Source: Halapricum desulfuricans (lineage in GTDB: Archaea > Halobacteriota > Halobacteria > Halobacteriales > Haloarculaceae). Taken from it: a stretch of DNA of 64,000 nucleotides. The notes under the pieces were generated by a model. The model saw only the letters and a program-made list of their open reading frames with translations, did no database searches and was not told the DNA's origin. The stretch lies in contig NZ_CP064787.1 of the NCBI RefSeq assembly GCF_017094505.1, positions 1-64,000 on the forward strand. The letters run 5' to 3'. Positions 14,330 through 15,499 of this stretch are shown here, one piece after another. Each line of letters opens with the position of its first letter. Within the stretch, counting starts at the first letter, position 1. A program made the position numbers and the translations under genes.

Positions 14330-14568
14330 ATTCACGAGAAACTGACGTATCAAGTTAAGACTGCCGGGCGTTCTCTCGGAGGGTAACTACCCGTATTCCG
14401 TGGATCGGACCGGAGACGAGACCAGTCGCAGGCCCGCCTACCACCGGAACGACTCGTGGACGTCGAGCCCCTTCGATTCGAGGACCGGGCCGTCGACGTC
14501 GGTGGTCCCGCCCTTGCGCTCGATCACTTCCTCGCAGGGGACGCCGCTGTGTTCGTCGCCGCGGACCG

Positions 14569-14649
14569 ATAGTGAGTACTGTACCGATTTACCGGTACGA
14601 CCGCACTACTTCGTGCGGTCGACCCGGAGAGACGTACAGTACTCACTAT
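14569..14649. repeat. Palindromic MITE-like element, family 1 (intact copy)
   Basis: An 81-base element with perfect 16-base terminal inverted repeats, atagtgagtactgtac and gtacagtactcactat. A central perfect hairpin, gaccgcac/gtgcggtc, lies at 14599-14620. It interrupts the 3' part of the deaminase gene, between codons for SLAS and RGDEH, so it is an insertion rather than a native intergenic structure. Related copies are at 7094-7168 and 21198-21262. It has no coding capacity. Confidence 0.8.
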
Positions 14650-14683
14650 GACGCCAGCGACGCCCCGGAGACGCTGTGAAGTA

Positions 14684-15185
14684 CCTCGGGGACAAGCCCC
14701 GAGGCTTCCCTGTTTAGGGCCGCATCGCACCGGCAAGGGAATGTAATTCCCCTCGACCTTCCCAGATGGGTCGGCTGGAATTAACACTCGAACACGCCGA
14801 TGTGTCCGTGAGGGCCTGGGCCTCCACCAGCCCACGACAACTCCCGTCTCACGCCCAATGGACGGTCTTGAGAGGAGTCGCATTTCCAAACTACCGAACG
14901 GCCAGCAAAGGAATTGAGGTGTTCAATTCCATATTTTGAGGGTTGTTCTCTGGCCGTTACAGCTCTATTTGTCGTCAAGGGTATTAAATATCGCCTTACC
15001 GGGGTGAAAGTGAAAGTGAGCGTACGGCCTTCACCCTCGGGGTCAAGTGGTTCGAGAGACTTCGTCTCTCGTCATCTGCTCACGGCGCTTGCGCCGTTCG
15101 CAGGTTCGTGGGACTTCGTCCCACGCCCATCACGGAAATCTTCGATTTCCGTACGACCCCGAGGCACTCGGCCTGCTCCGCCTGT
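14684..15185 (-). mobile_element. IS200/IS605-like non-autonomous element or remnant
   Basis: About 500 bases inserted in the deaminase gene. The right end has a perfect hairpin cctcgggg/ccccgagg at 14684-14704. The left end (15158-15185, minus strand) carries aggccgagtgcctcgggg-type sequence, which also occurs at 45650-45677. Subterminal hairpins at both ends are typical of IS200/IS605 family ends recognised by a Y1 transposase. Inside there are only degenerate short frames, for example 14978-14781 on the minus strand, and no intact TnpA or TnpB. The family call is inference. Confidence 0.6.
15035..15164. other. Cloverleaf-like cluster of five perfect stems
   Basis: An outer 10-base stem cctcggggtc (15035-15044)/gaccccgagg (15155-15164) encloses four consecutive perfect hairpins. 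These are cgagagac/gtctctcg (15053-15071), acggcgc/gcgccgt (15082-15097), gtgggac/gtcccac (15108-15124) and acggaaatc/gatttccgt (15132-15152). Three have the loop ttc. It lies at the left end of the inserted element. It could be a transposase-recognised DNA structure or a structured RNA. Confidence 0.75.
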
Positions 15186-15499
15186 AGAGACCCGGTCGAT
15201 CCCGGCGTAGTGGATCGCCGTCGCACACATCTCGCACGACTCGGTACTGGTGTAGATCGTGCAGTCCGCCAGCGCCTCGGCGTCGAGTTCGCGGGCCGCC
15301 CACCGAGCGAGCTCGAGCTCCGGATGGGCCGTGATATCATCGTCGGTCATCGTGGTGTTCGTCGATCGCCTGACCACCGTCCCGTCGACGACGAGCAGCG
15401 ATCCGAACGGGGTGTTGCCGTCCGACACCGCCTCGCGTGCCAGTTCGATCGCCTCCTCGACGTATCGTTCGTCTTCGATCGTAGGGGTCGTTCGACTCG

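Follow-up and report, generated by a model that had tools for sequence, protein, structure and literature searches.

PATEs (palindrome-associated transposable elements) and the small mobile repeats that target palindromes (SMR-A) were described in Haloquadratum in 2011 (PMC3119063). The PATEs of Haloquadratum walsbyi have no terminal inverted repeats, carry near-terminal palindromes related to those of IS605, leave no target duplication, and are too short for a transposase, and versions consisting of the termini alone are known; SMR-A elements (HqIRS42/43/55) are ~110 bp long, likewise leave no target duplication, and lie inside the near-terminal palindromes of PATEs (PMC3119063). IS200/IS605 elements that encode a Y1 transposase (TnpA) and TnpB, such as ISHp608, ISDra2, and the haloarchaeal IS1341-type elements, insert 3' of a short target without duplicating it and have subterminal hairpins at both ends. 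At haloarchaeal TnpB genes, the same kind of palindrome forms a hairpin adjacent to the right end (RE), described as the right-end hairpin of omega-RNAs or sotRNAs (PMC12558985).

The locus described here shares features with each of these systems. Within the window (the whole stretch that we analyzed, the first 64,000 nucleotides of contig NZ_CP064787.1 of Halapricum desulfuricans), a 508-bp insert interrupts a minus-strand gene for a nucleoside deaminase (Table 1). The limits of the insert read TCTAC/AGGCGGAG at the left end (LE) and ..GTACTTCAC/ at the RE (slash, junction). The orthologous deaminase gene of a relative (L232) is intact, with an empty site that reads GTCGTCTAC/AGCGTCTCC; the window junctions are TCTAC/AGGCGGAG...GTACTTCAC/AGCGTCTCC, which places the insertion 3' of TCTAC with no target duplication. 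Judged from these junctions, this is the IS200/IS605 pattern, and a second empty site (L251) also shows no duplication. The RE ends in TTCAC, as in IS200/IS605 elements with TnpA and TnpB. The insert is too short for a transposase and contains neither tnpA nor tnpB, which distinguishes it from autonomous IS200/IS605 elements with their Y1 TnpA; it has near-terminal palindromes of the form CCTCGGGG..CCCCGAGG at both LE and RE, related to IS605-type ends, and it qualifies as a PATE as defined in PMC3119063. A preliminary description had recognized an IS200/IS605-like insert without a transposase, and that assignment of the element type holds. It had also put the structure discussed below at the left end of the insert; in window coordinates the structure lies at the right end, which is the LE of an element on the minus strand.

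The interrupted deaminase gene (15184-15479 and 14440-14675, minus strand) is probably dead, because one base also appears to have been lost just before the insertion site (GGGTCTCTAC versus CGTCGTCTAC in relatives). An 81-bp repeat (14569-14649) breaks up the remnant further. Its terminal inverted repeats are 16 bp long (ATAGTGAGTACTGTAC..), a CTTCG hairpin lies inside it, and there are >20 genomic copies of it, several directly at or after a TGA.

Table 1. Features of the inserted element and its LE structure (window coordinates)
Feature	Coordinates	Strand	Remark
Non-autonomous IS200/IS605-derived element (PATE), 508 bp	14676..15183	-	LE 15183, RE 14676; boundaries, empty site
Target pentamer TCTAC	15184..15188	-	Directly 5' of LE
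LE terminal 19 nt	15165..15183	-	Same 19 nt at the LE of the sole element encoding TnpA
Outer stem, 5' arm (LE near-terminal palindrome)	15035..15044	.	CCTCGGGGTC
Outer stem, 3' arm	15155..15164	.	GACCCCGAGG
109-bp insert in palindrome (A with B nested)	15048..15156	.	Between CAAG and CCCC
Hairpin 1 (h1)	15053..15071	.	Cassette A; 8 bp
Cassette B, 55 nt (h2 + h3)	15075..15129	.	Center of cassette A
Hairpin 2 (h2)	15076..15103	.	Cassette B; CTGCTCACGGCGCTTGCGCCGTTCGCAG
Hairpin 3 (h3)	15107..15125	.	Cassette B; 8 bp
Hairpin 4 (h4)	15132..15152	.	Cassette A; 9 bp
PATE core, noncoding	14705..15034	-	Homologues in other haloarchaeal genomes
RE near-terminal palindrome	14684..14704	.	No cassette; CCTCGGGGACAAGCCCCGAGG

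At the LE, the two arms of a 10-bp outer stem pair around four inner hairpins, three of which (h1, h3, and h4) have the loop TTC, as first described. The original picture of five perfect stems at 15035-15164 stands for the outer stem and the number of inner hairpins and needs adjustment for h2, which is slightly less regular: its core (15082-15097) has ~6 bp and a 4-nt loop, to which a CTGC/GCAG extension is added. Folding of 15000-15190 gave z scores of -5.6 (RNA) and -5.4 (DNA), and 0 of 200 shuffled sequences were as stable, in agreement with the earlier view that such regularity exceeds chance. A scan of the structure with Rfam covariance models returned no match at an E value of ≤1; tRNA-like and known-RNA readings were discarded on this basis, the first of these having already been dismissed.

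The structure is not the single five-stem unit originally envisaged but a terminal palindrome holding two nested cassettes. Palindromes of three kinds were found: free of cassettes, with cassette A only, and with both A and B. The cassette-free kind reads CCTCGGGG-CTTG(A/T)-CCCCGAGG and includes the RE of the window element itself as well as ends in L086, L101, and L189. Cassette A consists of 54 nt with two hairpins (h1 and h4) set seamlessly into the end palindrome; in copies with two inner hairpins, these 54 nt lie between identical bases, and exactly the stretch that we call cassette B is missing. Lengths are quantized, in that terminal-only copies with both ends readable measure 101 to 104 bp (A) or 155 to 157 bp (A and B), fitting ~48 + 54 and ~48 + 109, and the 109-nt insert length recurs in several contexts. 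From family to family, the inter-hairpin spacers show strong conservation. Cassette A comes in two subtypes with linked differences (G15/C39/T63 versus C15/G39/G63 in columns 15, 39, and 63 of alignment A3); these may reflect a tertiary contact or simply lineage.

In size (109 bp in the window and in further contexts), in its lack of a target duplication, and in its position inside a PATE palindrome, where cassette-free and cassette-bearing versions differ by the insert, this insert resembles SMR-A, to which it is likened by description. Unlike SMR-A, it consists of a pair of two-hairpin cassettes, one nested in the other, which are also seen one at a time and away from palindromes. SMR-A elements have prominent inverted terminal repeats; those of the window copy, TGGTTCG and CGTACGA, are weak and imperfect, and another subtype has TCGTCCG and CGGACGA. 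A search of the Haloquadratum plasmid PL47 gave no match on that plasmid. The PATEs of H. walsbyi differ from the window element, whose LE palindrome contains a two-level hairpin insert, and cassette-bearing terminal-only copies (~102 or 157 bp) are here spread over many sites. The end hairpin is a five-way junction, unlike the simple hairpins of IS200/IS605 elements, and unlike the omega-RNA hairpin it lies at the LE rather than the guide-proximal end.

The genome has a sole Y1 transposase gene (461518-461877), which sits in a divergent TnpA/TnpB element of ~2.07 kb (G000:459932-462005) with open reading frames for both proteins. The LE terminus of this element, AGGCGGAGCAGGCCGAGTG (19 nt), and its target TCTAC are identical to those of the window element, and each of its two ends carries an outer stem of this kind around two inner hairpins (cassette A). 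On the strength of these common ends, its TnpA is the natural candidate for mobilizing the window PATE in trans, and recognition of the structure by a Y1 transposase acting in trans, one of two readings offered at the outset, appears to be the better of the two.

Between its ends, the PATE carries a noncoding core with conserved, partly covarying secondary structure. Homologues in L021 (1300-1608), L101, L102, L136, and L168 belong to different haloarchaeal genera and families; the relative in L136, from a same-genus genome (G069), occupies a different site and is 97.3% identical to the window PATE over 444 bp. Among six sequences, 25 of the 63 predicted pairs showed a double change. The core had no significant similarity to the TnpB proteins of the genome and matched no Rfam family. 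We infer a promoter from an A+T-rich, TATA-like stretch at ~14980-14990 on the minus strand, and the core is possibly an omega-RNA-like noncoding RNA without its TnpB.

A covariance model of the outer stem with cassette A found matches in 128 of 145 sampled Halobacteria genomes. Cassette-B-type stretches (50/391) are also present in named haloarchaea of many genera, and in Natrialbaceae (Natrialba and Natronorubrum, for example) B alone occurs at the right ends of TnpB. The LE copies have clearly different flanks, and 19 of 22 lie behind TCTAC, in keeping with the fixed short 5' target of IS200/IS605-type elements, with no clear preference at position -6. A 157-bp terminal-only copy at 2906119 has an empty site in a same-genus genome. 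Because near-identical cassette-bearing copies occupy many TCTAC sites, it appears that the cassette was already aboard when these ends moved; terminal-only copies could also have arisen by deletion of the core after insertion of a longer element. The phage records that we searched contained no match, and a pair of orthologous loci at 45.6 kb, considered as a with/without-cassette comparison, was rejected since the relative holds a different insertion.

In alignment A3 (34 copies), 98.1% of cells are paired, and double-change cells number 91, versus 25.8 in shuffles (0 of 500 shuffles, which are uncorrected for relatedness); the count is far lower when partners are slid, and one-sided intermediates are rare. 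The preliminary description had made its case depend on further copies and compensatory changes, and it holds on this point because both were found. Mismatched cells comprise 10 G-T and 7 A-C, small counts with no clear G-T excess; frequencies so similar give no hint that selection acts on one RNA strand. Most loops belong to one of two reverse-complementary pairs, TTC/GAA and TCC/GGA. The window PATE and the G069 copy differ by 12 mismatches, 6 of which belong to one compensated block swap of ~9 nt at the tip of h1. The equal mismatches and the block changes point to maintenance of the stems at the DNA level. Template switching is reported to homogenize repeat arms and invert the spacers between them (PMC8604942, PMC8794818), and by analogy the h1 block swap matches this signature; covariation here is therefore no proof of RNA function. 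A blind test of h2 in a pattern scan of named genomes gave 108 of 117 pairs across distinct sequences; scrambling the letters gave 48.7 on average, and dealing 3' arms among stems of equal length gave 103.5; the variation is mainly in length (103.5 versus 108), and h2 was set aside as evidence of covariation.

We consider it likely that the structure is the end of a Y1 transposon that carries hairpin cassettes, is mobilized in trans as single-stranded DNA, and has its stems kept perfect by template switching. The outer stem would be the near-terminal palindrome that the Y1 transposase binds as a single-stranded hairpin, and the four inner hairpins would be passengers, with A seamless in the palindrome and B between the hairpins of A. 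The end would be functional with its cassettes aboard, near-identical cassette-bearing copies having been placed behind TCTAC at many sites, and the mobilizer would most likely be the genome's only TnpA, working in trans during replication on single-stranded DNA. Perfect pairing of the stems would be kept up mainly by template switching, in which one of a palindrome's arms, or a related arm, serves as the new template, so that both arms are rewritten together and the loop may flip. As a counterpoint to the proposed end function, the PATE has a cassette at its LE and none at its RE, and that the two ends function equally is an assumption.

An alternative is that RNA function keeps the structure, either as the 3' hairpin domain of omega-RNA at TnpB right ends or, in PATEs, as part of a structured noncoding RNA that drives the element, as the preliminary description had also suggested. 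At several TnpB genes the structure does immediately follow the coding region and precede the TTCAC end, haloarchaeal omega-RNAs have a right-end hairpin (PMC12558985), strong transcription of PATEs is possible (PMC10544981), and pairs in the PATE core covary. We nevertheless regard this alternative as unlikely: the window structure lies at the LE, which on the transcribed strand is upstream of the core's likely promoter, copies reduced to the termini carry the structure at many sites without any RNA core, and the stems show no clear bias of G-U over A-C and swap their arms block-wise. At TnpB right ends, a role in omega-RNA may exist alongside the role as a DNA end. It is similarly improbable that the perfect hairpins arise neutrally, as a mutational by-product of template switching, with no selection by DNA-end recognition or RNA; the compensated block-wise changes and reverse-complementary loops bear the reported signature of that process, but palindrome correction alone does not explain the strong conservation of the spacers across families, nor the constant cassette lengths and precise ends. 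Least probable of all is a role for the inserted hairpins as a device of host or parasite that disrupts the end palindromes of IS605-type elements and thereby inactivates them, an idea put forward for SMR-A of Haloquadratum, where 104 insertions into PATEs or IS605 elements were reported (PMC3119063): the cassette does sit within the near-terminal palindrome, but the TnpA/TnpB element with both reading frames open has cassette A at both ends, and the 2011 proposal fits poorly with how near-identical cassette-bearing copies have spread to many distinct TCTAC sites.

Relative to the cited literature, PATEs and palindrome-targeting SMR-A were already known from Haloquadratum, and the nested two-hairpin anatomy, the quantized lengths, the class-wide distribution, and the DNA-type covariation are new. 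The "enigmatic" small mobile repeats of 2011 thereby gain a concrete anatomy of fixed-length, nested two-hairpin cassettes with conserved spacers, present in most sampled haloarchaeal genomes and carried by Y1-transposon ends that apparently work. Two questions are thereby opened to testing: to what extent a Y1 transposase (and an omega-RNA) can accommodate a large insertion at the apex of its recognition hairpin, and by what means short palindromic cassettes that encode nothing and duplicate no target can move. The locus is also a natural example of compensated changes in stems for which template switching of DNA may be responsible, and thus a warning for covariation-based discovery of RNAs.

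We tentatively raise the possibility, which we hold to be short of probable, that cassettes A, B, and C (~47 to 58 nt) each move on their own and rank with the smallest mobile units known. They would enter transposon-end palindromes, omega-RNA regions, and each other seamlessly, through a single-strand-based process that leaves no target duplication. In a TnpB gene at 546 kb, the 3' region is split by clean insertions of a 47-nt cassette-A-like unit and a 57-nt cassette C, while the paralogue at 609 kb, nearly identical in other respects, has no such interruption. For cassettes outside IS605 ends, general insertion at hairpin apices was considered and found unsupported, and their flanks pair no better than mismatched flanks. 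Cassette C, with two hairpins (TCCCCAGAAATC..GGTGTGCGAACGA..TCGT.AACG), was seen in TnpB omega-RNA regions and other places (L069, L070/L119, L147). A and B together also occur in unrelated hairpin-rich contexts, among them long intergenic islands (L145, L153, L154, L172, L206, L216, L221, and L230), several of which start with AGAAAGCCCCG.. or end with ..GGGGCTTTCT. In L148 and L151, cassette-A-like units apparently lie within the stem-loop of hairpin 1 of another cassette, forming hairpins inside hairpins.
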